A DNA stretch of 64,000 nucleotides from Hypomyces perniciosus (Eukaryota; Ascomycota; Sordariomycetes; Hypocreales; Hypocreaceae): positions 124,001 to 188,000 of the forward strand of contig SPDT01000011.1 of NCBI GenBank assembly GCA_008477525.1. The letters are read 5' to 3'. The notes under the pieces are model-generated. The model made no database searches. It saw only the letters and a program-made list of their open reading frames with translations, and had not been told where the DNA came from. Positions 1 through 31,230 of this stretch are shown piece after piece. A program made the translations under genes and the position numbers. How positions within the stretch are numbered: position 1 is the stretch's first letter; every line of letters starts with the position of its first letter.

Positions 1-801
1 ATTTTTAACTTTTAACTTGTACGTATGCGTACATACATACTGGGTCTTGTGTGTGTGGAATTGTATCTTTTTATTACAGTTATAATTTAACATCAATATA
101 TCGGATCGATTATTGTATTCTAGATATGTTTACTTGACACGATAGATGCCATCGTAGAAATTACTACGGCAGCAAGCTGTGAATTCCATTCTATCGCCCC
201 TCCCAGATAGTACCTATGCATTCCTCCTAAGGCGTTCGAGTAGCAGGCTGCTGGTGGGCTGCCTGGTTGCCATCCTTCTTTACCCCTCCTTCGTCCAACA
301 CAGAATCGACGGGAGACATGCCCGCCACCCATTCCTCCACCACATCCCTGTCAACGGATTCCATTGGCGACTCGGATATTGGTACAAGCAAAGGTAGTCT
401 AGTGGTGAATCTCCGAAGTGCTGGGCGTCGAGTGGAATTTGAGCGCCGTCGTTATTTCCACCTGACCTTTCATATTGAACCGAAATATAGTGTAGTGGTT
501 GAAGGATAAGCGATGATAACTTCGCTCGCATATGCATATACATATGTATCTCACACACACATACATATATATATATATTATGGAACGCCTTGTTGTCACC
601 GTTTCTTGGGAATATATTCCGCAAATAAGAGCCTCTAAAATAAGAATACGGCTGATTCAGGTTCTTGAAATATCCAAAAGGTGACTTTTAGACCATGATC
701 AGTAACTGACAAATCCGCCACTCAAATATGTACCATATATTATCCAAGTCTCGAAACCACTTCGACGTTTCGACTGGTTGTAGAAACTGAAGTCAGTGAC
801 C
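1..801. other. intergenic, AT-rich, microsatellite near 540-580
   Basis: No gene is supported here. Short open frames on both strands lack start codons in good context and have no recognisable domains. A mixed CA/TA microsatellite (alternating cacaca and tatata tracts) lies at about 540-580. The last 100 bases would hold the promoter of the gene starting at 802. Confidence 0.5.
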
Positions 802-2430
802 ATGGAAGAATACGAGAAGTTCAGACAAATGTCACTTGGCGCATTTTCCTGCGACTCCCTTTCCCTGCTGGGGGTAGCTTTGAGCGTGATTCAGAGGCGA
901 TACCCCAATGCTATCCGCTCATTGGCCACCAATGGGTCTGTGGTGTATCCATCTTTAGAAGATATTTCAGGTTTTGAAGTCCCGATGCCGCATACTGCCC
1001 CAGAATGGATAGGGTATACTTTTGGAATTTCACTTTTGCCTCCCATTGATGGCGGCAGCGTCATTGATGGCAGCAACATCAAAAAGTCAATATGGCATCT
1101 AGCCCGAGGCGATTGCGTCGAACAGGGCACGGTAGAGGCATATCTCAAGCTTCTTCGGCCAAAGTCTCTCAGTACACAGATTCTAAAGGTCCGAAATGTG
1201 CAGGATGTCATCGAGATCCAGGATGAAGGACTCGATCGGCCCACAATAATACCGTTTCAACGCGGAGATAATTGGGCCTTTGCTGTCGCGTATTCAGACT
1301 GCATTCACTGGTACAATAGCAGCGAGCACAACGACATACCAACGCCCTCAACTAGAGATTCAAGGAGTGTTGTAACTTGCTGGACCGGGCCAAGGCAGCT
1401 CAAGCCCGAAGACTCCGGGATATTCATGCTGTTGGGCATTCGGTGCATTCAACAAGGGACCCCACACCTGAGTCAACGAGCTGCTGATGCGGTGGCATCC
1501 TCCTTCCGTGACCGTATTATAATTGAGCTTCTCTGTGAGAAGATAGACCCGAGTGATGACGACTTCCAGGAGTTTCTGAGACAGGATGAAGAGCAGAGTC
1601 TCTTCGTCCACGATGCCATAAATACCACAGACCCCAGGCCACATGAAATCTCCGTGACTCCACCTCACATCCCTGGGTCTTGCACTACTCAAGATGTTGC
1701 TTCTCCATCGGTTGTTGAGGAATCGAGTTGGCCATGCCAGTCTTCCACACCTACCCCAGAGCGCTCACTGAGTCGTTCGTTGTCGGTTGCCTCCTGTCAA
1801 GCCTTCCCTGATCTCCGTAGGGATATCCTGCAGCACCTGAGCGAGGCGGCCTTTGCGTGTCGCTCTATGAGAGCCTCCACAGCCAATGACTTGGTGGTGC
1901 TTTGGCAATCGATGAAGAGAGGGCGTATAGGCAGTACACTCCACGAAAGATATAATGCCGTGTTATTCTGCGACAAGATGGACCAACTCCGGGGCGACAA
2001 CGATATAGACAGGGCAACGAGTTATCAAATAGATCAGCAATGTATCAAGGCCATGAGATCCATGCAGTCGCGATGTAAGTTTTGGAGAGACCTGTGCGAC
2101 CTTCGCCGGGAATGGGAAACAGGAAAGTATGCGTTGCTTCTCGCGATCCCAGACATCCCGGCCCGGAAATTACAGGAACAAAAAGATCAGCTCCTCTGCG
2201 AGTTAAGTTCCCGTCTTGAAAACAGAGTGGACCCACTTGGGGGTTGGCTCCAACAGGCACAGAGTCTGTGCAGCGCTATTGTTAACCACACGCTTCCCAA
2301 AGAAAACCTGATGATTGATCTCTATCATCTGAAGCAATATGAACCTATGACCGATTCTGCCTATCAAGCTTTCATGAGCCTAGACCCTCAAGCCAAAGTA
2401 CCAATTCCACGAGCTAGAGCTTCGAGCTGA
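802..2430 (+). CDS. Ulp1/C48-fold protein with substituted catalytic residues
   Basis: Single exon, 542 aa. The first in-frame ATG is at 802. Residues about 95-215 follow the layout of the Ulp1/SENP (C48) cysteine-protease core: a W.L..GD...Q..V..YL stretch, then NWAFAVAYSDCIHWYNS, then PRQLKPEDSGIFMLLGIR. In active family members these carry His-Trp, Asp and Gln...Asp-Cys-Gly. Here the aligned positions are Asn157, Asn172, Gln199 and Ser205, so the Cys, His and Asp of the triad are all replaced and only the oxyanion Gln remains. Active proteases of this family remove SUMO-like modifiers; this one is more likely a binding pseudoenzyme or a decaying copy. Residues 280-540 are a low-complexity Ser/Thr/Pro stretch and then a helical region with no recognised family. 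Fold assignment is by motif spacing only. Confidence 0.7.
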   Translation: MEEYEKFRQMSLGAFSCDSLSLLGVALSVIQRRYPNAIRSLATNGSVVYPSLEDISGFEVPMPHTAPEWIGYTFGISLLPPIDGGSVIDGSNIKKSIWHLARGDCVEQGTVEAYLKLLRPKSLSTQILKVRNVQDVIEIQDEGLDRPTIIPFQRGDNWAFAVAYSDCIHWYNSSEHNDIPTPSTRDSRSVVTCWTGPRQLKPEDSGIFMLLGIRCIQQGTPHLSQRAADAVASSFRDRIIIELLCEKIDPSDDDFQEFLRQDEEQSLFVHDAINTTDPRPHEISVTPPHIPGSCTTQDVASPSVVEESSWPCQSSTPTPERSLSRSLSVASCQAFPDLRRDILQHLSEAAFACRSMRASTANDLVVLWQSMKRGRIGSTLHERYNAVLFCDKMDQLRGDNDIDRATSYQIDQQCIKAMRSMQSRCKFWRDLCDLRREWETGKYALLLAIPDIPARKLQEQKDQLLCELSSRLENRVDPLGGWLQQAQSLCSAIVNHTLPKENLMIDLYHLKQYEPMTDSAYQAFMSLDPQAKVPIPRARASS

Positions 2431-3004: not shown

Positions 3005-3875
3005 ATGATTCCGATATTTCCCCTCCTTTTCGCCATCTTAGCCAACGCTACATGCACTCGCTGGTCCGATGTCTGGGAAGTCTTGCGAAACGACACGGTC
3101 GACGAAGCTGCCAGGATCCTTGGCCTTCCTGACTATCGAGCCATCCAAGAAAGAAATCCGGGGATAAATACGGCATTCATCGCTCCGGGGCAAACCTACG
3201 ATGTCCCATTTACAACCCCCATCGCTCCACCAGGAACTTGGGTAACAACTGGTTGCTCGCACATTCTCTATCTGAGAAGCCAATCAGACCCAACCCATCG
3301 AAATACAGACGTATCTACGGAGACGTCTGAATCGTCTTTATGTCCTTCCACGACAACGGAATCGTCAAACAGAAGGTCTACATCATCTACTCGGACCTAT
3401 TCGCCAACGTATTCGAGCTCGCAAAGTAGTCAACCAGCCAGCCGCACCGATGCCCCTAGAGTGATAAGTGCGTGCCACCCCTCAGGGAAATTCCCCAAGA
3501 TAAAAGACACCCAAAGTGATTTCGCGACGCGATTCTGCAGCCATCATGAAAACTCTACACTGAACAGTAACAGCCACATGATCGTCGATTTATTTGACGC
3601 TGATGGTCAGGGCCACTTTCATCTCTATTCTGTCGGGTGGATCACAAGTTGCCAACTCAAGTCTTCCCAGACCGTCAAAGGTCCACCACAAATGCGATGT
3701 GGCTTTGCCATGAAGACGGTAGCCTTCGAGGCATGTGCGTAACAGTAGCATGTAGAAAAGGCATTAATAATTCCAAGCTAATAAGCTAATAGGCGACAAC
3801 GGAGGCATGGGTGGCTTCGTTGACATAGACTGTTTGAGATATGATTACCGGCCCCTTTCACCAGTCAAATATTAG
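3005..3875 (+). CDS. secreted LysM-like protein with six-cysteine C-terminal domain
   Basis: Two exons (3005-3734, 3793-3875), 270 aa. The start is the ATG that opens a signal peptide (MIPIFPLLFAILANATC); the longer open frame upstream has no ATG. Residues about 18-75 resemble a LysM fold: WEVLRNDTVDEAARILGL, ERNPGINT, then APGQTYDVPF, matching the family's GDT...N...GQ.Y.VP skeleton. A Ser/Thr-rich linker follows, then a domain of about 110 residues with six conserved Cys that recurs at 48.1 and 54.1 kb. The intron (58 nt, GTGCGT..TAG, CTAAT branch site) splits the fifth Cys codon (T|GC) and is supported because exon 2 restores DNGGMGGFVDIDCLRYDY, which is matched in the paralogue at 54.1 kb. 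LysM proteins bind chitin or related glycans outside the cell; a role here is inferred. Confidence 0.75.
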
Positions 3876-4813: not shown

Positions 4814-7708
4814 TTATCTCTTGTGTCTGCCACTATCTTCATGTCGACCGTCAGTAGCCTGAGACGGGCGCCGCACCACAATCGTATGACTACCATTACT
4901 AACAACGTTGCGGAAACAATTTTCTGCGCTCAATATATTACCCTCCTTGTCAAACAGATAGTAACCCTTGTTCTCATACTTCAGCGCCAGCCGCCCTACC
5001 GGCGAAGGATCCAATGGGTTCACTTCGACAGTATCTGCAATAACCAGCGTTTCATCAGGTTCTAGATTGATGAAGTCGATGCGCACCGTCGGTGTTGACT
5101 CGCTCCCATTTCCTCTAGCTACTTCTTCTGCTGCAGCCACTATGGCTTCCTGGTGTTCCCTGTTGGGATCGTGCGCCAAAAACTCGTCAAAGGTGAGCCG
5201 TGTGCTTCGATCTGTCCGATGCAGTACAATTTGAGTCTCTGCTCCTCTTGGTTTCGATGTGACCGGTATAGGTTGTATCGGAGCGTCTGCTTCTTTTGGC
5301 GTGGGTTGCGTGGCTAGCTCAACTGTATGTTCCCTAGCCATGTGAGCCAGCTGCTCTCTTTCCCTTTCCCTTTCCCTTTCCCTCGTAATATCGGCTTGTT
5401 TTTCTGCAAGCAATTGAGCTACCGCCCTTCGCTCATCCTTCAGCTTACGTTTCTCCTGGTCCACCATTACCTTTAACCGATCCAACCTCTCCTGCTCCAA
5501 AACTGAGTCTTTCCGTAGTTTCTTGAGTCGCACATTCTGGTCATGTATCTGTTGATTGATCCTGTCTAGCCTTTCCTGCTTTGAAACTTCATCTTTCCGT
5601 AGCTCCTCGAGTCGCAGACTCTGATCTTGTATCTGTTGATTGATCTTGTTGAATCTTTCCTGCTGTAAAGCTTCGTCTTGCGCCAACTGCTCGAGTCTCG
5701 ACCTCTTGTCCTGCACTTGCCGGGACGCATCGCGAAGGTTTGCCTGCTCCGATTCGAGCTCCTGCCTTGTGGCAGCTAAGGTTATGTCCTCCTCACCGAT
5801 CGTCATCAGCTTGCTGCTGTTTCCAGAGAGCTCAGAGAGCTCAGACTGCTCGCATTCGATGGACGCATTGCCTGCCATTACCACGTCCTCTCTCGCAGTA
5901 TTCTCATCTGTAGAAATATCTCCAATGGACGGAGGAACTCCAAAATACGCACAGTAAACGGACCATTGAACAAACGTCGATGTCATTTCTCCCATCTCGA
6001 CATCAACCTCATCGTGCATCCGTGGTAAAAAGAGCCGGACTTTGACGTAATCATGATCGGTGTTGTTTGGTCGGCCGTGTCGCTTTGGTGGCTGGTCGAC
6101 CTCTCTTATTCCATCTCCCGCTTCGTCTGCCGTTCCGTCCGCAGAAGTTGGCACAGCAGCCGCAAAGGCATCTAGTATTTGCTGTATGCATCTCTCCGGA
6201 TCACGAAACTCATATCGTCCGGGCTTACGGGCTGTGAGGAGCGCGCTTTCGGCAATATTTCGGTCGGTAGATTTGCGTAAGATCTCGTCGAGCTTGTCTG
6301 ATTCGAACCCAAGCTGCGAAGCGAGAGACGCGAACTCGTACAATGCTGTTTGGTCCGCCTTCGTCCGCGAGAGTGCCAAAAGATCTTTCCTTTACGTATC
6401 GGCAGGCAAATCTTTGTAATTGCGAAAGGCTGCTAGCCATAGCTGTCGAATCCCAAGATCCAGACGAGTGTTGCTGTCGCCTGCAACGCTTCCAAAGGTT
6501 GTCTCAGACAGCTGAATGACGCACCGATCCCTCCTTTGGTTCGCATCGCTGAATATTCCTTCCAGACAGCCAGCTATTGTGTCTTTTCTCCCCACGTCCA
6601 GTATATTCCTGATACAGCTGGCGGCATCACCAAGTAATTTTCGGTCTTCAAAAAACGTGAATAGAGACGGGATAAGGCAGCGCCGGGAAGCGCTGCAAAC
6701 CCTCGACCAAAGCTCTTGACGCTGCGGGGCAGAGAAGTTCTCAAAAATTCCACCACTTCTCAGCCGCGCTAGGAGCATGTTACGGTCTCCCGAGTGATCT
6801 GCCGCATAGCTGCCTTGTTACCGTCGCAAACGTCATGCCACCATCTGTAAATATGTTTCAAGTACGCCAGGTTTTGCTATGTAATTATGAACGTTAATGC
6901 CAACGGTGAACGAATTCGGGTGCACTACCTCGTCACACTTCATGCCCAGCAATTGGTGTATAACGCTTAGTCGGAAGCCCCCGAACAGCCCCGGCATGTC
7001 GAGAAGGGCATCAAATGCAGCGCTGTATTTTTTATTCTTCGAAAGTTGGTCGAAGAGTCTCCGGCTATTAACATTCGTTGCGAGTCGAGCTAACCATAAG
7101 TTTTCGAAAAAAGTGTTTTCCTCTCCATGATATCCTTGGAACTGCCTGATCGTAACATAAAATTCTCCATCGTCAGGCTTCTTCTGGTAATCATAACCAT
7201 CAGCGAGTAGAAGTCGCAAGTCGTCACTTAGGTCTGTAAAAAGTGAGTACGGACAACCAGATTAGCCATGCGACGCACCATCAAGGTAGAGATCGACTAC
7301 CCATCTCTTCTTCGAGCCTTGAAGCACCTCGTCAGCTGCCGAAAGTCGATCGTGACCGTCAAGGCACTGTATTTTAACGTCAGGAGGGAATTCTAGTTCC
7401 GGGTATGGTAGAGTGTCAGCCATAAGACTTCCGCTGGGAATCGAGACGCTAGCTATTGCCGCTTCTAGAACCTGCTGGCTAACAAGAGCCTTGACATGAT
7501 GGCGTCTATCCTCCTTGCGACAACCATTCTCTTGGCGAAACATCCTCTTCATCGCGTCGACATGGCTGTTCTTAGAACCCGCGACGTTTTCATGCGCCAG
7601 ATCTCTATACTGCAAAGCCGTTATGCGTAGGCTTGCAGTTCCACAGTACTTTGTTCGTCGTTCCTCCTCAATACGACGATTTACCGTCGTGAAATTTTGG
7701 ACAGTCAT
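4814..7708 (-). pseudogene. DUF3723-like fungal gene, disabled by a stop and a frameshift
   Basis: Minus-strand gene starting at the ATG at 7708. Exon 1 (7708-7279) holds KYCGTASLRITALQY and IQCLDGHDRLSAADEVL. A 45-nt intron (7234-7278) joins it to DLSDDLRLLLADGYDYQ and the following helical repeat-like region. A second intron (6845-6911, weak GTTCAC donor) is needed to reach WWHDVCDGNKAAMRQITRETV; otherwise there is a 1-nt shift. At about 6779-6783 the frame breaks before MLLARLRSGGIF. An in-frame TAA at 6392-6394 is followed by 524 open codons in the same frame with no nearby ATG, so it is a true internal stop. The C-terminal half has a long coiled coil built on a repeated QERLDRINQQIHDQ unit, an (RE)n run from a TTTCCC hexamer tract (5358-5383), and a folded tail ending in an ENCFRNVV stretch. 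The family call is from memory of the motif order; its function is unknown. DUF3723 genes are reported as Starship cargo. Confidence 0.65.
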
Positions 7709-9140
7709 GGCATGGGGTTTCGCAGAGATCAGAGAAGACAGGACGATCGAAGCATCAATACGGGTTTACAAACCTTCTTGTATGCCCTAGTGTTGCTCGC
7801 AATTCATCCAAATCTGGCTGCTGGTGCTGGCTTTTGCCCATTTCAAGCCGCGCTAGCTAGCAATTGTCTACTCACAAAATGGCGCTTCGATCTCCATCGA
7901 AGCCACAGGGCCTAACTTTTATAGACTTTCTCAAATCGCGGTACATAAAGAAATAACATGTTAAAGACACCGAATCGACTCTAGAAACGCAGCATAACCC
8001 AGGTTGAGCCACACCAGGATCGTCAAGGCGAATTAAGACGGCCGTTGGCAACCCTTATTGATAATCCCAAGTTTGCTGCTATTACAGGGTAAGTGCGCAG
8101 CCTTGAAGATGGAGGATAACACTTCGGCTCGATGCACCAGTTCATCTTAGTGGGGGGGGATCAAACTATGTCTTCGGATTTTGCATGCCAAATGAACCAA
8201 AGGCCTTTCTAATCTAGTTTATCCCGCATTAGGTACTCCGTAGTCTAAGCTCTAAACTTAATAATGAACGTGCACTCCCGTCTCAAACACGAAAACAGAA
8301 CAATATTGACAAATAAAGAAAACGGAGCTAGGGAAATAACTGCAGCTTAGACGTCCTTCATGGCTCTTCGCCGCACCCGATTCTTTTCAACTTTTGCCGG
8401 GCATCATAGGAACTCACCGACCCAGCTTCCCATGGTAGCAGGATTCAGTCCCTGCGGCAGACTTTTTCAATCCCAGCCCTCGCGCTCGTTTCTCCAAGGA
8501 CCTTACTGAGGCTCGACACGGTAAGCATATGGATACCCTTCTCGCGAAACCTCACGCAGCAGTCTGCGGGTAGATCCTTCCAGTTAGCAGCCACGTTCTT
8601 CCGCTGCACCTGTGACTTTGTTACCCAGAGGGGCTCGTCAAAGAATCCGACCACAACTGGCGGAGGCCCTCACTTCTCCCAGCTTTGTATCCTATCACGT
8701 TGGAGGAGGGTAATACCACCATTCACGCAGTGTAAGATGTAAGAAAGTAATGGCAGTTCCGCAAGTTCTCAAGCTGGTGTATAATATATTAAGGAGAATA
8801 TGGCCTTACCAACCTCGCTCACATAATCGTGTTGCGTTGCTGTGTCGTTGAGCTGCCTTCCTAACGCATGGATACCACCTAATACCCCACGAAGTCCTAC
8901 CCCACGAAGTACATGTAAAAACATGCTCTTGTGACTGAGCTCCCGAGTTAACCTACAATACATGGGCAATTGCGACGCGCTAATTGATAGGTGTTATTTA
9001 CACAAGATGTATAAAAAATATCATATTTTATCTCATTTCTTTAGGCTGGCTTGTTCACCTAATATGTAATGTCGTACAAGAACCCTATCCAAATCAGAAA
9101 CAAATACATTGAATTGGGTTGTTATTGTACCGATATCCAT
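7709..9140. other. intergenic, no supported gene
   Basis: Short minus-strand open frames at 8445-8654 and 8769-8969 have no recognised domain and no clear splice partners. A copy of the 9-mer TACTCCGTA lies at 8234-8242. Confidence 0.4.
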
Positions 9141-12853: not shown

Positions 12854-13714
12854 CCGTTATCTATACCATGTCATCAAGGACAATGCTAGGGTGATGGATT
12901 ATTTGTGGAGTGCCAGAAACCAGGCAAGATGCCATTTTCAACAATATCTTGACGTTGAAGTCTATCAGGATCTTAAAGAGGATCAGAAAAGCCATCCAGA
13001 ACTTCCTTATTTCAGGCGGCACGCTTATCACCACATTCGGGTTCGTGCTGGCAGCGTCTTGGGGTCCCGTGAAAACTACCCCTTTACCCTAGACAGTGGT
13101 ACTACATCAACAAAAGTCCAAAGGCCAAAGTGGCATATTAAGAAAACGTTCGGAAATTTTGAAACCCTGTGGTGAGCATGGAAATGATCTAGGCCAATGG
13201 GCGAAAAGAAAATAGTCTGTTGACTTGCTATTACTTTTTGTTGGCTGTACGTAGAATTGCCACTGGGATGTCTTGACAGCGGCCTGTGGAATGGTTTCAT
13301 TTACCTCTAACACTGTAAACTCAAAACATCCTGTAAAGTACATACAAATTACGATCTCTAATATGTTAATATGTGGCCGAATAGAATAAGCCGCTACCGC
13401 TTTTAACCCGGGAAGGCTTCTGTTTATACATATTGGGATCGGAATCTTGCTATGTACATATTCATATGTACATGTACCTGTAACTAACTTGATTTAATGC
13501 AATAATCTCTCATTTATTGGCTATGTCGTTGGAACTCGTTCTCGCAGGTCCCTTAAGGATCCTAACATAGCCTAACATATGAAAGCCATATCCGGCTCTT
13601 GGAAACTTGTTCAAATCGCCCGCCTATTTACGGCGGGGCACTCTTATATGGACTTTCCTATAAAAGACCAAATTCAGAGCTTCCAAATAGAGCATTGCTT
13701 GCTCTGCCTACAAG
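12854..13714. other. intergenic, no supported gene
   Basis: Overlapping frames at 12891-13175 have no recognised domain. A short AT-rich stretch with repeated tacatat/gtacat words lies near 13450-13480. The last 100 bases, with a TATAAA at about 13661, fit a promoter for the secreted protein gene at 13715. Confidence 0.4.
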
Positions 13715-14347: not shown

Positions 14348-14384
14348 AATTCATTTATAAAGTTGTATTCAATATGGTTCCCAA

Positions 14385-17212
14385 TACATTACTATTTATT
14401 AACGCCCGGCGGCTAAGCCGAAAGGGCAACTTTAGCTAGTGTACATTTTGTTTCTCAAGTTTGTCGTAACTCCCAAAAGCCCATGCGCGGTATCCTTCTT
14501 CTGTCTATCATGTCTTGCAAGTCTTGTGTCTTTCTACGTGTTCCCGTGGTTTAGTAATTTTTTATTAGCAAGCCAGCTTGGAGGCGATTCTACGAGTGTT
14601 CAGCGTCCTACCTTCGGCGAATGAAGCGTTGCCTGCTGTTCGTGCCACGAGGTGGTGAGTGTGGTTTGGGTCAGCTGTAAAGTGGGTTAGTGGGTTAGTG
14701 GGTTAGTGGGTTAGTGGGTCAGCTGTAAAGTGGGTTAGTGGGTTAGTGGGTTAGTGGGTTAGTGGGTTAGTGTGTTAGTGGGTTAGAGGTGCGGGTTCAT
14801 CCCCCGCCGTTAATTTGCATCTAGTCGGCCTGTGGCCATCGCGCACCGGATTGTCGCTCGCACTACTTTTAGGTTTGGTGTCCATTTGTCGTTATCTGGC
14901 GGCGACTTTCCTCCCAAGTAGAAGGAGATGTTGCCTCTTCGTGTTTCTGTGCATTGGAGCATCTCTGTTCGTTGTGTTGTCCACTTTCTGCATCGGAAGA
15001 GGAAGTGGTCAACCGTTTCTTTCGCTTGTCTGCATTCGCATTCACCTGATGGTGCTGCGTTGATCCGATAGAGGTATTTATTCTCGCCATACCTGTCCTA
15101 AGTTGGGCGAACACCCTAGCTTCGAGCCGTGATAGGCAGTCATAGAGCAGTCGCGTATGTTTCCCTGGTATGTAGTGCTTTGTCTACTCTCTTAGAGTGC
15201 TTTCCAACGTCTTCAAGTAAGAGTCTATCCTTTTGCTGTTGTGACCGCGCAAGATTGAGCGTTGTTGATTGCATTCTGGGGAACTGGGCTTGCTGGGCAG
15301 CACCTTGTTGGGTGGCATTCCGTGCTTTCTCTTTGGCTCTCTTAAGCAGATCGTTCTCGTCGCTTGTAGGAATCCATAAGGCTGTCGCTGCGTTTCCGCT
15401 GCTTCGCAACTCTTCGATCGAGTCGCAGATGCACCGAACATACTCTTGCCCTGACTGTTGGCGCGGTTGTTTGAGCGCAAGCACCGCTGCTTTGTTGCTC
15501 GTTAGCAGTATGACGCTCCAGTAGCTGACCCTTGGTAGGTGTCGTCTTAAGGCGTACGCTATGGCTGCTAGTTCTCCGCTGTATGGATTCTGCTCTGTTC
15601 TCTTGCCTGTGTGAACGAGAAGGTCTCGGTCTTCGGGCCGCCGCGTACGGATGCCGGAATCCGGATGGCCCCGCCCACTCCCACTATACCATTCCGCGCC
15701 GAGCTGCTCACTGCTATGCGAATGGCCCAGCCTGCATCTGCTTTCGTTGCTGCCGCTTCGTCGGCGATAGCTTCTAGTCGTTCTTCCCATGGTGCTAGTG
15801 TGAACGGGCTAATAATCTCTAGCCCTTCCACCTCAATGTCCTTAAGCGCTACTGTCACTTGATAGAGTGGCGATCGGTGGGATCTTCTAAATACTCGGAT
15901 ACGAGAGGCTACTCGACGGAGAGGGTTGGTTTCAGGCAATGTGTGAATGTCTATCCACATTTTAATTGCCTTCCTCCAAAACCACTCACGCGCAGAGGCG
16001 ATATGTGCCTCTGCTTCCGCCACGCTCGTCGCTACCGTGAGGAATGTCCCGGTAATTGCCTGTGCTCCCACTCTCTGTACTCGATTGATCGGTCCTGCAA
16101 CTTTATCCTTGACCGCGTGCATCCACACGTTGGAGGCGTAGTCCATTACTGGGGCAACAGTGGCCGTAAATAACTGCCGTGCTGTAGAAGGAGATATGTT
16201 CTTTAGGCGTTTTAGCTCCATCGCTGCCTGAAGGCCCTTGGTCGCTGCTCTTGCGATATGCTTCTTATACTTAAGTTCGGCGTCCATGATCACTCCTAGT
16301 ACTTTGACCTTCTTTTTGGGCTGGATGTTCTGGCCTTTAATGTCGAAGAGTTCTGAGTCACTCTTGTACTTTTTCCGAGTAAAGTGTATGATCGCTGTCT
16401 TGCTTGCTTCAAAGGTTGCTCCGCTTCTCTTCTCCCACTCTAGGGCATCCTTGATGATTGCTTCGATGCCCTCGCGGTTGCTCTGTGCCGTCGGTCCCGT
16501 GACTCACGCCGTGAAGTCATCCACAAAAGCCATCGCTCCTCCGTGGCAGTCAATATGCCGTTGCACTAAGTCTGCGTTGAAGAAAAGAAACAAGATCGGC
16601 GATAGAGGGGAGCCTTGAGGTAGACCTGCTTGTGGCAGGCTTCGCTTCTCGGCTAACTGCCCGTTGACTTAGATTGTTGCTGTGCGCTGCGAGCAGAAGG
16701 CCTCGGTCCATCGAAGTAGCTTCTCTGGTATACCTCGAGCTCTCATCCTTTGAATCAGCCTTTCTTTACAGACGCCGTTGTACGCTCCTTTAACGTCAAA
16801 GCTCACTAAACTGAGGACTCATCGACCCCGCCAGGCGGCATACACCTGTTCCTGCAGTAGCAAGAGTGCTTGTTCGGATGATCGTTGTTTGCGCGCTCCG
16901 AAATGGTTAGTCGGGAGCAGACCATATGTTTCTACTGCGTGCGATACTCTCTCGGCAATTACTGACTCTAGCACTTTGCCAAGCGTGGCGAGCAGCGAGA
17001 TCGGCCGCCAGGCTTTTGCAATTGTGTAGTCCTCTTTGTCGGCTTTCTTGAGCGGAATGATCTTTGCATGTCTCCATTGATCGGGCAGTACACCCTCCTC
17101 TAGAGATGCATGAAATATCGCGAGCACGTGGTGTTTGACCGCCGGCCACGTTTGTTCCAAAACGATCACAGGCAGGCCGTCTTCTCCGGGTGCTTTCCAT
17201 GATTTTGCCATG
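14385..17212 (-). mobile_element. Tad-like LINE copy A, 5'-truncated and mutated
   Basis: Minus-strand non-LTR retrotransposon, clearly homologous to the copy at 33.7-38.06 kb. The 5' break is inside the reverse transcriptase ([13 protein letters not shown] at 17210) and the 3' end is the shared GCCGGGCG-type tail at about 14390. The reverse-transcriptase and RNase H frames are broken by stops at 16504-16506 (TGA replacing Trp after the FVDDFTA motif), 16669-16671 (TAA replacing Gln) and 16819-16821 (TGA replacing Arg), plus a frameshift near 15600. All three stops are C-to-T or G-to-A changes relative to the intact copy, fitting RIP or methylation decay. The 3' UTR has an expanded 8-bp repeat (separate entry). 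Confidence 0.9.
14682..14787 (-). repeat. GTGGGTTA tandem repeat in LINE 3' UTR
   Basis: About twelve 8-bp units reading GGGTTAGT on the plus strand, split into two blocks by a GTCAGCTGTAAA phrase. The other LINE copies in this window have only about two units at the same place, so this copy expanded. It resembles, but is not, the fungal telomere repeat TTAGGG. Confidence 0.9.
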
Positions 17213-19862: not shown

Positions 19863-20708
19863 CTAATAGTACCCCCCTTGGCGTTCTTGTGGATTTGTGA
19901 ATGGGGGTTCTGTATCGAGAAGCCCCTCCTCTGTGACCCAAACCTCTCCCTCGGCAGCCCATTCATCGCATTGAGGACCGGCGGCAGAATGGTAATCCGG
20001 ATTTGGCCCAAAGCCCATACCACCGGTAGAGGCTGAGGCGGCAGCCGGAGCTGAAGCCCAGCCGCCGCTTCGTTGATGCTGCGTGTCCAACTGAACGACT
20101 TCGTTATCGTGCCAATTCGTTGGGAGTGTTGTGTGTGCAGGCCTTGGAGATGGAGGCATGTCGAGTAGTTCCCTTGGCGGCGTTGGGTGCTTCTTGATGT
20201 AGTTCAGGGCGTCGACGATGACCTGGCCGTCAGTGTTAATCTCGAGATATTCACTCTTCTCCGCCAATCCTAGTCCAGCAGGTATATAAGGGATTAAATA
20301 GGTGCTCTCCTCATTGAAAATCCACAGCCGTGCCGTACTACCGACACAAGTCATGGTCCAGACATGCTTTTGCCCGGTCTCGACGTAGTATGCACAGGCA
20401 GCCGTGAAGGCCTGGTATTCTACCTCTTGAATGTCGGAGGTTGATGCGCTTGCTCGCTTAGCCTCCATGAAAAGCAAAGTCCTGACAGTTCCATCGTTAT
20501 TATCGCTATCCATCTCGACAACGAGATCGACCCGTCTTAGCTCCCCCGGTTTGTGTGTTGGTGGCTGTTGAGAGGATACGGCCCATTTTTCATCCTTAAA
20601 GATGATGTGGTTGAAGATGTACTCCCATAGCCGTGTAGTTGCCCACTCTGGGTGATTCTGGGCGTCATCCCAAAACCGCTTTAAGAGACGAGTTTTAATC
20701 ATGGACAT
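19863..20708 (-). CDS. PD-(D/E)XK nuclease-like protein
   Basis: Single exon, 281 aa, from the ATG at 20708; the open frame extends six codons further but without an ATG. Residues about 1-120 carry a restriction-endonuclease-like core: helix (RLWEYIFNHIIF), then VDLVVEMDSD, then RTLLFMEAKR, giving the D...(E/D)xK catalytic signature, followed by an alpha-beta stretch (YQAFTAACAYYVE, HVWTMTCVGSTARLWIF). The C-terminal third is low-complexity (Ala/Ser/Gly/Pro) and acidic. Fungal genomes hold many such stand-alone proteins of unknown role, some within mobile elements or near NLR genes. A nucleic-acid-cleaving activity is inferred from the motif only. The gene lies next to the PNP-NACHT-WD40 gene, transcribed away from it. 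Confidence 0.6.
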   Translation of the reverse strand: MSMIKTRLLKRFWDDAQNHPEWATTRLWEYIFNHIIFKDEKWAVSSQQPPTHKPGELRRVDLVVEMDSDNNDGTVRTLLFMEAKRASASTSDIQEVEYQAFTAACAYYVETGQKHVWTMTCVGSTARLWIFNEESTYLIPYIPAGLGLAEKSEYLEINTDGQVIVDALNYIKKHPTPPRELLDMPPSPRPAHTTLPTNWHDNEVVQLDTQHQRSGGWASAPAAASASTGGMGFGPNPDYHSAAGPQCDEWAAEGEVWVTEEGLLDTEPPFTNPQERQGGYY

Positions 20709-21454
20709 GGTATGAGAACTGTACAAGATAGGATAGTATCAATGAAATGTGTATGGACAAGCAGATAGAAGTATACGGTTCAACAGAATCAGTTACGCCC
20801 GAGAGTCAATTTTTGGGGTGTATATAGTTTTTCCAGGGCACCATTATAAAGCGCACGGACATGTAAATCACAGTGCTGATTACTGTTTATGTACACATGG
20901 AACTTAAGCTACATATAACCATGACCCAGGTACAAATTTCGTCGAAATCCAGCAGGCAGTGGCGTGATGAAGCGCAGCATAGTCAATGTACCAACTAGCT
21001 GTCAGGGTAGCAGGAATGCCCATTGCCATCGGTCATCTCAATTACCATGGCGCCGAACCTTTAACTCCCCCAGCAATGCCTGGGCAAGCACCGGTCTATG
21101 GCTGACCGCACGGCAGGAGACTGTCGGCTGCGGTGTCGACAAGCTATCTATTTGATTTGATACTTTCTGAGTTCTCTCAGATCAATCCAGGATCGGCAGC
21201 CGACGCAACAAATGCCTGCAGCTGAGAAATTCTGCCCAACCCCACCTGGTCCAGCCCAATGCTCAGCGGGGTCGCGACAGCCAGCCTCATCTCCTCATTT
21301 TTGAGGTCTCTGCGTTTTATCTCTCCCGTCTATGAGAGGAGCTGAACGTTTGATATCTTTCAAGCCGCGCTATTCGAATCTTCCGCAGCCCCAGATTAGC
21401 GCAAGTTGACCCAGCCAAATTGCCATCGACAAGACCTCGATCCCGCAAACGAAT
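20709..21454. other. divergent intergenic region
   Basis: About 750 bases between the divergent starts of the PD-(D/E)XK-like gene and the NLR gene. It should hold both promoters. No other feature seen. Confidence 0.5.
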
Positions 21455-24400
21455 ATGTCGAACCCCGAAGATTACACTATTGGGTGGATCTGCGCTATCA
21501 GCACGGAGCGCGTCGCCGCAGAAGCCTTTCTTGACGAAGAGCACGATCCACCTGACTCTCTCTCTCTCCATGATAGCAATGATTATATGCTGGGCAAGAT
21601 TGGGAAACACAATGTGGTTATTGCTGTGTTGCCCGAGGGCGAGTATGGAATAGCTTCTGCGGCCAGCGTCGCAAGGGACATGCTGCATAGCTTTCCTAAT
21701 GTCAGAATCGGTCTGATGGTAGGCATCGGCGGCGGTGTGCCAAGTACGAAGCATGACATCCGTCTAGGCGACGTTGTTGTTAGTGCTCCTCGCGATGGGG
21801 AGGGTGGCGTATTCCAATACGATTTTGGTAAAACCTTACAAAACCAGAGCTTCCAACATACACAGTTCTTAAACCAGCCACCAATGGTCTTAAGAACTGC
21901 TATGAACGGAATCAAGGCCCATTATGAGAGGAAGGGACATCGGCTTGAAGAGACAATCAACACTATTCTTCAGGAAAACCCAAGATTACAGCAGAAATAC
22001 AAGCGACCAGACCCAAATAGCGACAGGCTATACAAAAGCGGAGTCGTCCATCCTGTGGATGAAAAAAGCTGTGCAGCTGTTTGCGGTGATGATCCATCGA
22101 GCTTACTACCTCGAACTGAACGGACAGAAAACCACGATAATCCGGCCATTCACTACGGCATAATCGCTTCGGCGAATCAGTTGATGAAGGACGCTGCAAT
22201 AAGGGATAGACTTGCGGAGGAGAAGGGTGTTCTGTGTTTTGAAATGGAGGCGGCAGGGCTGATGAACCACTTTCCCTGTCTGGTCATTCGTGGTATTTGC
22301 GACTACTCAGACTCGCACAAGAATAAGGAGTGGCAAGGGTATGCAGCAATGACGGCAGCTGCATACGCAAAAGATCTTCTCATCCGAATCCCTCCCAATA
22401 AAGTTGAGGCTGAGAAAAAGATTAGCAGCCTACTTACTGAAGGTTAGTTCTCGGCCTCCTCGCTTAGTGTATTAGTATAGTACTAAATAGGGCCTTTGAA
22501 GTCGATCAGAAGATGGATACTATTAGCCAGAAGGTAGATACTATTAGCCAGAATATTTCGTTCGACAGACTCCCCGGTGCTGTGGGAGCCTCCTTCGACT
22601 CCCGTGCCGAAGAGCAAAACCCAACCTGCTTGCCAAATACCCGAGTCGAACTTCTTAATCAAATAATGGAGTGGGCCAAGAATTCGCATACTGAGCCCAT
22701 TTTCTGGCTGAATGGTATGGCGGGGACTGGGAAGTCAACTGTTTCCCGCACTATTGCACATTCTTTTGCTAGCACCGGCCATCTAGGCGCCAACTTTTTC
22801 TTTAAGAGAGGGGAGGGTGACCGAGGGAGCTCAGCCAAGCTTTTTACGACAATGGCCGCTCAACTAGCAACGAGGAAGCCCGCTATCGCCCCTTATATTA
22901 AGAACGCAATTGATGCCGACTCCGCTATCAGCGACAAGGGACTAGAGGAGCAGTTCGACAAGCTTATCTTGCAGCCTCTATCCGCGGTTTCACTAAATGC
23001 TGGAAAAGCCGAATCTCTTGTCATTGTTATCGATGCCCTAGATGAGTGTGAGCCGGAAGATGAAGTCAAATTCATCATTCGTCTCTTTGGGCGTGCTAAG
23101 ACCTTGGGGTTGAGAGTTTTTATTACCAGCCGGCCGGAGCTTCCAATTCGTCTCGGCTTTTCTGCAATCAGGCGCGGATATCAAGACGTCATTCTTCATG
23201 AAATATCGGAGGCCGTAATTAAGCGCGACTTATCGGTTTTCTTCAGGCATGAATTGGCGATAATCCGAGCAGAGTACAATAGCTCAGTACAGGAATACCG
23301 ACAACTGGACACAGACTGGCCCGGTCAATCTAGTCTTGATACTCTAGTGAACATGGCAATTCCACTCTTTATCTTCGCCGCCACGGTGTGTCGCTTCCTC
23401 GCCGATCGCAAATGTGGAAACCCCGACAAACGACTTCGCAAGGTTTTGGACTACCAGACCAAAAGTCAAGAGTCCAAACTTGATGCAACTTATCTACCCG
23501 TCCTTTATCAACAGATCGCTGGGCTTTCGGAACGGGAGAAGAACGAGGTTCTGCAACAATTTCGACATATCGTTGGCTCAATCGTGCTTCTCGCAAGTCC
23601 CTTATCAACATCTGCCCTAGCACAACTCCTTGACATTCCTAGAGACAGTATCGATGATGGATTAGATATGCTTCATTCGGTCTTAAGCATTCCACCATCA
23701 GCTGAGTCTCCGGTGAGGCTACTACATCTCTCCTTCCGCGAATTTCTGGTGGATCCCGAGAACCAGGGACAGAACCCGTTCTGGATTAACGAAGCACAAA
23801 CTCATAGACAGATAGCAGCTCACTGTCTGCGCGCTATGAAAGAATTCCTCCGAGCAGACATCTGTGGTCTACGATCATTAGGATTGGAAGGTTCCATAAT
23901 TGACAGTCAGGAGGTCAATGCATATATCCCTGCTGCAGTCCAGTATTCCTGCCTAAACTGGGTATTCCACCTCCAAGGCGCACGAGATCACGCTGGTGAT
24001 TATGAGGAAGTTTTTCAATTCCTGAAACAGCATTTCCTGCACTGGATTGAGGCGCTAAGCTTAATGCGACGAGCACTAGAGAGCGTCAAGATAATTAAGA
24101 GTCTACAAGCTCTTCTACAGGTAAGTCTATACAATAATATATCAGATAGGTTTACTGACTTTATAATAGGAGGAGAGTAATAATGCACTATCTAACTTTT
24201 TAAAGGACTCCCTGCGGATTCTTCAACCTAATTTATCAATCATTAGCAGCGCACCTCTTCAAATATATTCTTCAGTCCTTATATTTGCTCCACGCACAAG
24301 TGTTGTTAGGAACCAATTTAAGAGCGCGATACCTAACTGGATAGATCTCAAGCCAAGGGTTGAGAATAATTGGGATCAATGCGTACAGAAACTCGAGGGC

Positions 24401-25177
24401 CATGGCCACTGGGTTCAGTCAGTGGCCTTCTCACACGACTCATCGCTCGTGGCATCGGCTTCAGAAGACGAGACGGTGCGGCTATGGCGCGCCGATACGG
24501 GCGAGTGCGTGCAGAAACTTGAGGGCCATAGCGGCTCAGTTGAGTCAGTGGCCTTCTCACACGACTCATCGCTCGTGGCATCAGCTTCAGAAGACGAGAC
24601 GGTGCGGCTATGGCGCGCCGATACGGGCGAGTGCGTGCAGAAACTCGAGGGCCATAGCGGCTCGGTTGAGTCAGTGGCCTTCTCACACGACTCATCGCTC
24701 GTGGCATCGGCTTCAGGCGACGAGACGGTGCGGCTATGGCGCGCCGATACGGGCGAGTGCGTGCAGAAACTCGAGGGCCATAGCGACTGGGTTCAGTCAG
24801 TGGCCTTCTCACACGACTCATCACTCGTGGCATCGGCTTCAGAAGACGAGACGGTGCGGCTATGGCGCGCCGATACGGGCGAGTGCGTGCAGAAACTCGA
24901 TACCGGCCTTATATCTCACTTATCGTTTAAATCTGATAATTTGCATCTCCTTACAAACGTTGGGGCATTAACTACGGTGGGAACTAATTATATTTTCCAT
25001 GCTACTGGCTATGGATTCAGCAGAGACCCCTACTGGATTACATGGAATGGGAATGATTTGCTCTGGCTGCCAGTGGACTATCGGCCGTCTTGTATGGCAG
25101 TCAGTGAGTCAACTATCGTGGTTGGCTGTTACTCAGGGAGAGTTTGGGTAATGGCATTTTCAACCTCTGGTAGTTGA
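21455..25177 (+). CDS. PNP-NACHT-WD40 NLR-type receptor
   Basis: Three exons proposed: 21455-22442, 22481-24120, 24170-25177; 1211 aa. Residues 1-320 are a purine-nucleoside-phosphorylase-like domain ([43 protein letters not shown]). A short linker repeats DTISQ. The NACHT domain has Walker A (GMAGTGKST, about residue 410) and Walker B ([10 protein letters not shown]). A C-terminal WD40 tract has four near-identical 42-residue repeats and a diverged tail. The second intron (49 nt, GTAAGT..TAG) is well supported. The first is unusually short (38 nt) and could instead hide a small frame disruption, though the paralogue at 60-62.8 kb has an intron at the same place and phase. NLRs of this layout act in fungal non-self recognition and cell death. 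NLRs are also frequent Starship cargo, and the captain lies 1.4 kb downstream. Confidence 0.85.
24398..24901 (+). repeat. four 126-bp near-identical WD40 repeats
   Basis: Four in-frame 126-bp units encode 42-residue WD40 repeats. They differ almost only at the loop after GH (GHW / SGS / SGS / SDW), the next Val-Gln or Val-Glu pair, and one E/G position. High identity with variation at surface positions is the pattern known from the HNWD (HET-D/HET-E/HET-R) receptors. Confidence 0.9.
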
Positions 25178-25459: not shown

Positions 25460-25526
25460 ACTTGTGCCCTATGCTTAGAAATCCGGAAAGTGTGTAAAGA
25501 GGACGGCGATTTCGCTCCGAACTGTA
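25460..25526. mobile_element. right end of TIR family 2 DNA transposon
   Basis: The inverted end reads CGCTCCGAACTGTA, the reverse complement of the TACAGTT(C/G)GGAGCGAAAT ends at 31231 and 59151. It ends at a TA that also belongs to the adjoining LINE fragment, as expected for Tc1/mariner-type insertion. The left end of this copy was not found. Confidence 0.65.
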
Positions 25527-26200
25527 TGACAGGCTGTCGGTGAATGAACCTAGCGTGCTTGCCCAACTTAGGACAGGTATGGCAAGATTGAACGCCATCT
25601 CTCTCGAATCAACGCAGCACCATCAGATCAGTGCAAATGCGGATATGAAAGAGAGACGGTTGACCACTTCCTATGTCAATACAGAAAGTGGACAACATAC
25701 CGAACAGAGATGCTTCAATATATAGAAACGCAAAGAGGCAATATCTCCTTTTAATTAAGAGGAAAGTCGCCCGCAGATAACGACAAATGGATAGCAAACC
25801 TAGAAGCAGTGCGAGCGATAATCCGGTTTGCAATGGCCATCGGCCGACTAGAGGCAAATTAACCGCGGGGGATAAACCCGCACCTCTAACACACTAACCC
25901 ACTTTATAGCCCACCCAACCCACACTCATTACCTCGTGGCACGAACGGCAGGCAACGCTTCAGTCGCCGAAGATAGGACGCTGAACACTTGTAGATTCGC
26001 CTCCAAGCTGGCTTGCTAATAAAGCACTACTAAACCACGAGATCACGGAGAAAGGCACAAGGCTTGCAAGATATGATAGATAGAAGAAGGACACCGCATG
26101 GGCTTTCAGGAGATATGGCAAACTTAAGAAACGCATATGTACACTAGCTGAAGTTGCCCTTTCGGCTCAGCCGCCGGGCGTCAATAAATTGTGTTGTATG
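25527..26200 (+). mobile_element. LINE copy B, 3' fragment
   Basis: Plus-strand 3' piece of the same LINE family: degenerate RNase H tail and zinc-cluster region (QCGY-like), the shared 3' UTR with one to two GTGGGTTA-type units in reverse complement, and the terminal CAATAAATTGTGTTGTAT tail. It has indels and substitutions relative to the copy at 33.7 kb, so it is older. Its 5' boundary abuts a DNA-transposon inverted end. Confidence 0.85.
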
Positions 26201-26620
26201 CAGCTAGCAGAGGAATCACAGTCACTTGACAAATAGGAAGCCAAAGATTAATAGATGGCAAGGCGGGGTTGGCAAACACCGAAAGCAAGAAGTGGCAGTC
26301 CCACCCCGCCCAATATCGCGCGTCGTCGCCTTCTACCTATATGTAGGTAGGTACCAAGCTATATACCCCGCTATGAGTGGCAAGAACACCAAATTCTCAT
26401 CTCTCTGGCGAGATGGCACGTATCTCATCCATGGGCACGAGATTAACGGCCTTGCATAATTAATATTGCAATAGATAACTTAGATGAGGCCTGAGCTGCG
26501 GCATAAGGCGAAACGAAAGGTTGGATTCACCATCAGTGGACGAGGATGCTGACACTGGCATAGAGAAATCGAGATGTTTATTCCAGATGTTACCGTAGTC
26601 ATTTAACCCCGCGACGGCAA
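26201..26620. other. intergenic, captain 3' flank
   Basis: No gene seen between the LINE fragment and the stop of the DUF3435 gene. Confidence 0.4.
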
Positions 26621-28985
26621 TTACGTATTTACTTTATATCTATCAAATATGTCATATTTATGAATGCTGGTCAGATGATGCTGGACGGCTCCAAGAGACT
26701 TGAGTGTGGTTCCCTTTTCCTTGCAATGTGGCTCAGGGCACACCACGCAGTTCTCAGCAACCCCTTTGAGGTGTTTGGCAATGAGATAGTCTCGTGCTCG
26801 ATAAGCGGAGAAGAACCTATGGTGTCGTTGGCTCTGGGGCAATGTCTCATTCCAAAAGCACATAAAGCACTGGTCTTTGTCACATTCCCTTGGCAAATCC
26901 TCCTTTGCGATTGTTACCGCCACCGCCAATTTTGGTCGCCTCGGCTCTGTCTTCCCCCCGAGCGTCATCATCGCATGTGTTGTAAGCCTTCGGTGTCGTA
27001 GTTTCGTCTCTTCATCCAAGGCGCTGGTGTCGGCACAAATGAGTTGGGCTAGTAGCCTTCGCTCCTCCAAACAATATGAGGGCTGGGGTTGCCAGGCTGC
27101 CGTCTCTAAGTCGAGGAATTGGCTCTCGTCCTTGAGCTGTGCGTTGATCTCGATGGTGTTGATTGTGTCGAAAAAATTCTTTCTTGTGTTGAGTTTCGCC
27201 GATTTGCGAAGGTACGCTCTCGCTGAGAGCACCTTGGCCTGCGCATCGTGGTACATCCTATACAGCGGGGTGTCGGCTACCTTGGCTGCCTTGATAGTCC
27301 CGGACTCGTTGCGAACTTCTCTCGCGTAAATGTCACGTTTTTTTATTAGGTGAGCGAGATTCGGGTCCGTCTTGATCTTCTCAAGTTCGGCAGGGCTGGC
27401 GATGGTAGGGGCTCTTGGGTCGGCAAACCGGCTCATATGTCCCGCTGCTTTCAACAGAGCCCCGTTCGAGGGGCGCCCGAGGAAAGCGGCTTGGGTGTCA
27501 CACTGAACCCGCTGGTTGATATACATTTGATATGTCGACGCACTTATATGATTCATGACCTGTTGAAGCTGCGCCTGCGTGGCCACCGCTAGTCAACGTT
27601 AGTTCTGCTGAGGTTCATGCACCAAAAGATCAATCTCTCACCTTCCACACCCTCGCCTGCGCCTCGGCGGATTGTATACGGCCTCAAGATCTGCATAAAG
27701 CCCGTCATCTCGCCCAGTCTTTGGAGGTAATAAAGGTAGGTATGGTACCGAAGGGCTTCTGTGCCGGATGTACGGACGGTTCCGTCATATTGCGATACTG
27801 CTTGTCGGAAAACTGGCACATCTTTAATATCCTTCCGCCAGTGAAACTCCAGCGAGCGTCGCGGTTCCTTGACTTTGATCTTATAAAAGTCTTCAACCGA
27901 GCGGATATCCGCCTCGAATGCTTGGTCAAGGAGGGCGATGGCCAAAAAAAGAAGCACTCCATCAAACAGCAGATTATCCACCTCATAAAAGATGAAGGTC
28001 TTCCTGCCCAGATGGTATTAGCAGTTGTCCGGTATGGCATTCTGAGATGACTTACGGGTTTTCCCTGCGTTTCCAGCCTTTAGTATATCTCAGCGTCACC
28101 TCCATCGCCGGCAGATCCCTTCCACCTTCAGCGTTCCTGAGAAGGATCAATTTGACGTCCCTGTAGCAAATTGTCTTGAAATCATCCTCTTCTGGGTCCC
28201 ATTCCGCCTCAGACTCTGTCTTTGTATCCTCATCCGTATTCGTATCTTCATCTGTCTGGCCCAAATAATGATCGTCAAGAGCACTCTTGTTCAGCTTCCT
28301 GTAAACGAGGACTCGGGGCCGCGTTGCTGTATATGCCTGGATCAGAATCAAGAGTGCCAATTGTATTCGTTGGCGCTCATCAGGAAAGACCGAGTTATTA
28401 TGGACCCAGTGATGATAATGAACGAGGTACACGTCATCAACATTCATGACAGGCTTCTCATTCACCGATGTGTCGAGCTTGTACACAGTCGTGAGATGTC
28501 CGTTGATATACTAATTGCATGTGAGCAGCCATTGCAGAATCATATTATAAACCAACACCAGGGACAGACACACATTCATGATCTCTTCATTTCCCTCTCT
28601 ATCAAAATCGACGCCCACAGACTTCCGATAGACTTGAAAGAGAATTCTCTTATATGTCTGTACAGTGCTCCTCTTTTTTATATCGGCATAGTTATCTAGT
28701 ATCCATTGTAGAAATGTCATTAAATCTTCTTTTGTCGAATTTTGAAGATGGATTTTTGGGTCAAATTGGAGGAAAGCGCAATATCTGGTTTGCATTAGCA
28801 TCATGAATAGTGAACAATATGACTTCAGCATACTCTCTCCATTTTTTTACCACACAATTCATATTGACCTTCGTGGTATCCGAATGCTCCCTTTTCACAG
28901 CGCCTTGTTTAGTGAGGCGGCGCTGTGTTGATCGATAGTAGTCGGGCGAGTGTTGCACCCGCGGTGCTCTTTTTTGGACGGCCAT
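26621..28985 (-). CDS. DUF3435 tyrosine recombinase (Starship captain)
   Basis: Five exons on the minus strand: 28985-28834, 28784-28574, 28510-28056, 28003-27642, 27588-26621; 715 aa with no stop or frameshift. All four introns (49, 63, 52, 53 nt) are GT..AG and each restores family sequence: KKWREY-CAFLQFDP; EEIMN-YINGHLTT; KGWKRRENP-KTFIFYEVD; GAGEGVE-AVATQAQLQQV. Hallmarks of DUF3435 are present: LALLILIQAYTATRPR, YHTYLYYLQRLGE, LRPYTIRRGAGE, and the C-terminal catalytic region QVMNHISASTYQMYINQ followed by AAFLGRPS and AAGHMSRFADPRAPT. The last 90 residues carry Cys/His pairs (CFMCFW; CPEPHC...HHLTSIH) like a zinc finger. This family catalyses Starship movement; the captain is the first gene and points into its element, so cargo is expected on the lower-coordinate side. 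Catalytic residues are placed by motif only. Confidence 0.92.
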
Positions 28986-30319
28986 TTCTCGTCTTTGTGT
29001 CTTGTCCTCGTTGGAAAAGAAGGTCTAGCCATGATGCATCTATAGTGCGTAGCCAAGTGGTTATTTAATACTTGGATTACTTAAATAAAATAAGCGTGAG
29101 GTGGTGGGCCGCCCCTGGATGGCGCCGGCGGCAAGACCACGGGGGAGTGGGGGGAGGACGGCGCCGGCGCGTAGCAAAATGTCCTCCAAAAGCGGCATCC
29201 CATCCTCCAAAAACAGATGCCACTTCCTCCAGTAAAAGAGGACCATTTGCGGTAAACCTGTACTTTTGCTGTAAGTCGGGCAATTTGTGAAGACTGCGAA
29301 AAGTTCATCAAACATATTGAAGAAAAGCTCGGTATACATTTTCAGGTAAAAGTTGTTTGATTCGGTTCAGTAGGTTGACAGATGGTTAGCTTCACCTTTT
29401 AGATGCTGTAGTAAGCATCACATCCTGTACAAACAGTGGCCAAACCCAACGAACCTCCTCCAGATGCTCACTATTCCCGTGACATGTGCTTTCACACCCG
29501 TTTCTGTTCCCGTTCCCGATACCAGGTCTGCAAGTCTATTAACGCAGTTTCCTCCAGCCTTGTTAACTAAGATGGAGGCCCCTGCCACGGCGCCCTAGGT
29601 ATGAAAGGCTGCACTTCCCAATGTATGTATGTCGATAACGTGGACACTTCCAAAGGCCGTCTCTGGGATAAATTAGCACTGTCAATAAAGAAACATTCCC
29701 ATCCCTACTAAGGTGCTCCCCTACGTTGTCAACGTACAATGGAGGCTGCAGGACTCACATCCAAGTGTTCTGGCATACTACCTAGTTAGCAAGATAGCTA
29801 ACCCCTTTTAGTGTGTTTATGAAATAAAGATCCTTTATTGTGGTGATTACATATGTACGATTCAGGATATGTACTGTATGTAAAGGCATTTACATAGGGT
29901 CGACAACAGGATCCTCAGATTAAAGAAGCCCAATTCAACTTGCATCATAGGGGTTAATGACGTATTTACCCCGCTCAATACTACAAAACTTGTTGAGCGA
30001 ACGGGTGTGACAATACATAGAATGACCGAGTACAGAATTGTTATAAATTTTTGTAACAGTACTTCAGAGCTACAAGGTGGAGGGCTGTAAGCCACAAGTG
30101 AACGCCAATAAAGTAGCGATTCACGCATACCTTTAGCGGTCATATGATATGTCACGAGGTGCCGAACTCTTGATGTCTTTTGTACCTCCCAGTATGGGTG
30201 GCACTGTCTAATTTGCTATTTACCCGCTAGTACGGAGTACTTTAGGGTGACATTGCTTTTTGCCGCCAGTTTGTTCCTAAAATATACAGTATTGCTCATA
30301 TTCTGTTTCCTCTTTTATA
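28986..30319. other. captain upstream region, possible Starship edge
   Basis: No gene seen. If the captain marks an element end, the boundary should lie here or slightly beyond. Visible structure includes an AT-rich palindrome (29061-29088), a GC-rich patch with GGCGCCGGCG at 29121-29130 and again at 29160-29169, and two TCCTCCAAAA words (about 29180-29215). A TACGGAGTA 9-mer is at 30231-30239. No terminal or direct repeat could be proven. Confidence 0.4.
29061..29088. repeat. AT-rich inverted repeat upstream of captain
   Basis: TTATTTAA and TTAAATAA form perfect 8-bp arms around a 12-base spacer. A second overlapping pair, CCAAGT (29053-29058) and ACTTGG (29070-29075), is also inverted. The site is 76 bases upstream of the captain start codon and could be a regulatory or terminal structure. 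Confidence 0.6.
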
Positions 30320-31220: not shown

Positions 31221-31230
31221 TAATTAATAA

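Follow-up and report, generated by a model that had tools for sequence, protein, structure and literature searches.

A Starship captain gene at a supported element end and its possible fusion to part of another element

The window, i.e. the whole stretch of 64,000 nucleotides that was analysed (C12:124001-188000), lies on contig C12 (325,907 bases) of a 44.0-Mb genome in 23 contigs. The features found in its left part are compiled in Table 1; positions given without a contig name are those of the window. The searches of the organism's own genome scored the best candidates only, so that the match lists are incomplete. These were the best 36 of 42 candidates for the left part of the window, 40 of 81 for positions 17209-25520, 32 of 35 for the left edge, 31 of 34 for the DNA left of the window (C12:110-120 kb, “block A”), and 39 of 377 for C12:1-10 kb. 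The search with the left part misses a copy on C20 that was found by the search with the left edge.

Table 1. Coordinates of the features at the locus (window positions).
Feature	Position	Strand	Evidence
Left edge, TGTAT; candidate 3′ end of an element just to the right	62..66	+	Copies on C20 and C3
ORF of 541 aa, weakly Ulp1/C48-peptidase-like (below the Pfam cut-off)	805..2427	+	ORF, Pfam
ORF with a signal-peptide-like start by eye	3005..3739	+	No Pfam match at E≤0.1
DUF3723 gene in two ORFs; central part of the domain outside the long ORFs	4817..7765	-	E=5.5e-30 and 9e-25
Breakpoint; copies on C20 and at C12:277-283 kb agree with the window to 13304, then share other DNA	13304..13305	.	Sequence comparison
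Small protein with a signal-peptide-like start by eye, captain half	13706..14344	+	No Pfam match at E≤0.1
Truncated LINE copy	14383..17208	-	Sequence comparison
ORF called PD-(D/E)XK-like in the original prediction	19866..20738	-	No Pfam match at E≤0.1
NLR-type series, PNP_UDP - NPHP3_N/NACHT - WD40 repeats, three ORFs	21410..25174	+	Pfam; tandem 126-nt repeats
Truncated LINE copy just past the 3′ end of the captain	25521..26199	+	Sequence comparison
Captain, 715 aa: DUF3435 tyrosine recombinase with five exons, unbroken	26621..28985	-	Splice model, PF11917, catalytic residues
5′-terminal non-coding region of the element, 284 bp, three TGGAGGA repeats	28986..29269	-	Similar region in the C16 captain relic
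TGTAA (TTACA on the captain strand), target side of the 5′ edge	29270..29274	+	Same first bases as in the uninterrupted C9 copy
Right flank: end (91 bp) of an ankyrin + SsdA_C-deaminase-like gene, downstream DNA, small repeated element	29270..30319	+	C9 copy, Pfam

The gene that had been predicted to be an undamaged five-exon DUF3435 recombinase, the captain of a Starship, is intact and real. Its exons (28985-28834, 28784-28574, 28510-28056, 28003-27642, and 27588-26621 on the minus strand) form a spliced frame of 2,148 nt that encodes 715 aa and contains no internal stops. The last exon matches PF11917 with E=3.1e-32, and the protein has a captain-like catalytic pattern, i.e. R185, K265, Y382, R385, and Y416. 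At least 44 related proteins were found at E≤0.001 when the best 7,995 candidates were scored. The closest of these, from Conoideocrella, is 65% identical over the full length, and the nearest proteins include further Hypocreales, Torrubiella (64%) and Metarhizium (55-67% identity). The structure model of the nearest relative (P0001; mean pLDDT 73, pTM 0.60, with the stretch 392-424 below 50) resembles Cre and XerH in a second comparison after Foldseek; Foldseek alone retrieved XerH only, at E=0.1. No relatives of the captain were found among the PDB sequences, the best E being 0.47. A captain phylogeny, which had been proposed as a test, would not discriminate, because captains are reported to be spread among solo recombinases in the DUF3435 tree instead of grouping in a single clade (PMC12134995).

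A genome-wide profile search, in which 33 of 33 candidates were scored, yielded 34 DUF3435 match rows. The matches on C12 are inside the window only, and there is none on C20. Another DUF3435 element is present at C4:678661 and C8:1155703 (L042 and L043); starting from a common 5′ end, ACTACCTTAAACAATGAGACGG, the two copies are 99.99% identical over at least 8.8 kb. The identity of 99.99% together with unlike flanks suggests that this element moved recently. Its captain family is found at eight places, all on the plus strand, and two partial copies without a captain are both on the minus strand. The many DUF3435 loci and the two nearly identical elements on C4 and C8 look like recent Starship activity.

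Typical Starship cargo had been predicted in the DNA that the captain faces, and this holds in part. Both the DUF3723-like gene and the NLR-type series are present, and NLR, PLP, FRE, and DUF3723 genes are described as common, not required, accessory genes of Starships (PMC12506042). However, the cargo is not one block: the NLR lies in the captain half (13305-29269), and the DUF3723 gene lies in a left part (62-13304) that is repeated in the genome. Copies of the DUF3723 gene are found on C3 at 82-95% (best 36 of 42 candidates scored). The 541-aa, weakly Ulp1-like ORF has at least 18 scattered relatives (best 7,995 candidates scored), and the seven with organism names belong to Beauveria, Trichoderma, Fusarium, and Ilyonectria. 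The stretch 896-2658 is lacking in the copy at C3:5.2 Mb and present on C20. The predicted PD-(D/E)XK protein and the predicted secreted proteins were not confirmed by any tool; an E-x-K-like motif in the former was recognized by eye only, as were the signal-peptide-like starts of the latter.

The ORFs at 17.8-19.5 kb, also in the captain half, have copies of 83-86% on C4 and C22 (C4:3664599-3666713 and C22:1081503-1083596 for window positions 17556-19400), about 77 and 44 kb, respectively, from other DUF3435 matches on these two contigs. A second NLR-type gene (PNP_UDP / NPHP3_N / ankyrin) is located at 60012-62907 on the minus strand, and its PNP part is 89% identical, in inverted orientation, to 21510-22426. 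Protein-kinase and ankyrin pieces are found at 43420-47165 on both strands (43420-44868, minus; 46087-47165, plus), and an inverted repeat pair (41404-41801 / 48834-49231) lies around them. Left of the window, C12 carries a second DUF3723 gene (109933-111456), a GH18 gene (72868-74022), and a large DUF6606/DUF3638 gene (15531-24664).

The captain faces inward, as had been predicted, and is the first gene inside a sharp element edge, which lies at TTAC; its ATG at 28985 is 284 bp inside the boundary 29269/29270. When positions 28950-30325 were compared with the genome (17 of 17 candidates scored), one long relative was found, C9:483439-484741, which is 97.8% identical to the right flank over 634 columns and 94.6% over 391, and which holds about 290 extra bases of repeated DNA. 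The similarity ends at 29270. The C9 reading frame across the equivalent position is unbroken and has at least 508 codons. This gene (C9:482001-483529, L044) encodes a protein with ankyrin repeats and, at its C-terminus, a single-strand DNA deaminase domain of the SsdA_C type (Pfam), and its copy in the window is cut at the captain edge, so that only the last 91 bases are retained. The stretch of the C9 gene before the edge (L044:600-1450) is found nowhere else in the assembly. On the captain strand, the junction reads ...GACTTACA/GCAAAAG in the window (the slash marks the edge) versus ...GACTTACACGGATTG on C9.

C16 carries the relic of a captain (C16:3361531-3362144; interrupted by stops, its pieces 41-70% identical) that bears on the same edge. 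The DNA upstream of the relic (L035 from about 9261) aligns with the 5′ region of the window over about 120 columns, beginning with AAGTACAGG, four bases inward of the edge; the alignment scores 77 versus a maximum of 34 in 200 shuffles. Beyond the edge, the flanks of the relic and of the window are unrelated (score 14 versus a mean of 17.7 in 300 shuffles). Two independent lines of sequence evidence, i.e. the interrupted C9 gene and the C16 relic, support 29269/29270 as a Starship 5′ end. TTAC is given as a target consensus of Starships (PMC11623449), the target of Hephaestus is TTAC(N7)A (PMC12153272), and the captain of Sanctuary starts about 350 bp from the edge (PMC12506042). The TTAC target is only a hint toward a captain family such as Hephaestus. 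DUF3435 genes are reported to be more usually solo than in cargo-carrying elements (PMC12134995), and the gene could accordingly be a solo copy that is not at an element end, with 29269/29270 as a mere duplication breakpoint from C9. In contrast, similar 5′-terminal DNA has been retained in the C16 relic from this edge inward, next to another flank, and both the TTAC at the edge and the 284-bp spacing are at odds with a solo gene, which we regard as very improbable.

The DNA behind the captain (29-43 kb) had been described as transposon debris. This is correct for the LINE copies at 30326-31222 and 33.85-38.06 kb, but the first 1,050 bp (29270-30319) are the copy of the C9 locus. The LINE at 33854-37720 (plus strand) has a 1,289-codon open frame with endonuclease and reverse transcriptase, and the fragment at 30326-31222 (897 bp) is 99% identical to it.

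The far end of the element had been expected to the left of the window, which the analysis does not support. The best candidate for a 3′ end is at 62-66, where a sharp left edge was found. Block A has at least three further copies at 95-98% (best 31 of 34 candidates scored). Among the best 32 of 35 candidates scored for the edge, a copy of the left flank (C3:4611664-4615726, 93%) ends at position 66, and a copy of the DNA to the right (C20:52410-58398, 95%) begins at position 62. The letters in common are TGTAT, i.e. GGAAT/TGTAT/CTTTTTATT on C12, ATA/TGTAT/CTTTTTATT on C20, and GGAAT/TGTAT/GTATAGAG on C3. A further copy, C3:5206279-5208112, crosses the edge; because it shares both this left edge and the flank beyond it, it represents a duplicated neighbourhood and no independent insertion. 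The start of the C20 copy and the stop of the C3 copy suggest that the left edge would be the 3′ end of a transposon.

TGTA is present at 62-65 and at 29270-29273. The edge letters are TGTAT and TGTAA, so that four bases agree only, and the flanking loci differ. TGTA starts at 0.4% of the positions of C12:1-198000, and its placement exactly at the second edge is therefore unlikely by chance. The candidate unit with TGTA at both edges extends from 67 to 29269 and has 29.2 kb, versus 16.0 kb if it comprised the captain half only; Starships range from about 20 to 700 kb (PMC12153272). No terminal inverted repeat above chance was found at the two ends of the unit, the observed scores being reached by 338, 342, 631, and 968 of 1000 shuffles in four settings. 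Such repeats were present in 18 of 20 Starships and are common, not defining (PMC12153272); their absence here may mean that the left end comes from another element.

Other positions for the far end were rejected. Inverted repeats or GTAA alone gave only chance-level candidates in C12:1-153269. The copy C3:5207189-5215477 stops at window position 9886, but three other copies continue past it; one of these, the C20 copy, which was compared by eye, skips about 135 bp. A 186-kb element with the eight-copy captain family of C3 at its head and C12 up to 133886 as its 3′ part was also considered; this idea was dropped because it relied on 9886 as an end and because C12:1-10 kb resembles other loci (C3:18-29 kb, C9:1.14 Mb, and C16:25-33 kb; best 39 of 377 candidates scored). 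Separately, C3:5146061-5206278 is a 60.2-kb insert with a 5-bp repeat TGTAT, the ends GTATA...TATAC, and no DUF3435 match; C12:123094-123098 is the empty site. The DNA that follows TGTAT at C3:4.6 Mb begins with GTATA, like the end of this insert, and may therefore be another insert and not the original flank.

Pieces of the left part, with the DUF3723 gene, recur elsewhere in the genome without a DUF3435 match close by (all 33 candidates scored); the C3 match nearest to the left-part copy at 5.21 Mb is about 175 kb away. Positions 12568-13304 are found at 95-96% on C20 and at C12:277764-278502 (best 36 of 42 candidates scored). The C20 and C12:277-283 kb copies were compared piecewise, and past 13304 both carry the same other sequence (90 bases of each were read, about 61 of them beyond the joint). 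In the bases read at the joint, the captain half does not follow the left-part copies. Positions 17209-25520 have gene-level relatives at many places; among the matches listed (best 40 of 81 candidates scored), none is on C20, and the only one on C12 outside the stretch itself is the NLR relative at C12:185885-186801. The insertion into the left block of an element whose own 3′ end is at 13305 is disfavoured, as there is no TGTA at the joint and the remainder of the block was not seen in the window, where it gave low scores only.

The breakpoint at 13304 and the lack of DUF3435 matches near the other left-part copies are compatible with a truncated Starship, whose captain would own only 13305-29269 (16.0 kb) or less and which would have lost its 3′ end, the left part being an unrelated repeated DUF3723 block. 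However, the left edge has TGTA in the same strand sense as the captain edge, and DUF3723 and NLRs are both listed as Starship accessory genes (PMC12506042), so that we find truncation rather improbable.

No single empty site with both flanks was found: the left flank is block A, the right flank is the C9-like gene, and neither continues into the other at the point that a single empty site would require. C9 holds the right flank unbroken, and C3:4.6 Mb holds the left site without this element, at separate loci. If 67-29269 were one ordinary Starship that arrived in a single insertion, these unlike flanks would have to result from later damage, i.e. from an added rearrangement that coincides precisely with the element edge. 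On this view, the copies on C20 and at C12:277-283 kb would be sisters with other cargo that have lost or swapped the captain-side half. TGTA at both edges and the polarity, with the left edge as the end away from the captain, fit such an element, and turnover of cargo and captains between Starships has been reported or proposed (PMC12134995, PMC11623301); nevertheless, the additional rearrangement makes a single insertion unlikely in our view.

With a probability of roughly 55%, we favour an undamaged captain gene at a genuine Starship 5′ end, with a fusion at about 13304 to 3′ sequence from another element. In this model, the captain would cleave both ends of its element and link them to a TTAC(A)/TGTA target in the manner of Cre-like tyrosine recombinases. 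The captain half would once have inserted into a copy of the C9 gene; later it would have become connected, at about 13304, to positions 62-13304, the 3′ part of an element with a similar target preference at a different locus. The present unit would be 67-29269 (29.2 kb), bounded on either side by the 4-bp core TGTA, and it may still be able to move. A single joining event at about 13304 would explain the unlike flanks, the breakpoint, the distribution of the relatives of the captain half, and the distribution of DUF3435. The left part may, however, not be Starship DNA at all, since DUF3435 is lacking on C20 and on C12 outside the window and is about 175 kb away on C3. A more far-reaching reading, which we consider less likely than not, is that two Starships from different loci recombined inside their cargo. 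The product would be a 29-kb element with an unbroken captain gene, an end from each parent, and the same TGTA core at both ends, a putatively mobile unit that would carry the flanks of two loci as a record of its birth. The joint, the captain end, and the likely far end are each placed to a few bases in one genome, so that the fusion can be tested by PCR.

Cryptons are fungal DNA transposons with a tyrosine recombinase that are small and not known to carry cargo of this kind. The captain of the Starship Sanctuary has the spacing Y424-R427-Y458, which equals that of Y382-R385-Y416 here. As in the Starships Hephaestus (HhpA) and Sanctuary, the captain comes first at the 5′ edge and faces inward (284 bp versus about 350 bp in Sanctuary; PMC12506042), and TTAC is the target (PMC12153272, PMC11623449), with an NLR and DUF3723 nearby. 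Unlike in these Starships, the flanks stem from two loci, there is an internal breakpoint, and no inverted repeat was found. Starships are implicated in gene movement between fungi, and cargo exchange has been inferred by comparing elements (PMC11623301). Among the matches listed, there was no paper dedicated to Starships in insect-pathogenic fungi, which is no proof of absence. Cargo-swapped Starships resemble the present case in that parts of one element lie beside a different captain (PMC11623301), and nested Starships are described in Verticillium (PMC12289983). In contrast to both, the left part has no known captain here, the joint is placed to the base (13304), and the flanks of both parents may be visible. 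Exchange of Starship cargo and nesting are thus already in print (PMC11623301, PMC12289983), and the present locus adds a placed joint together with an intact captain at a supported end.
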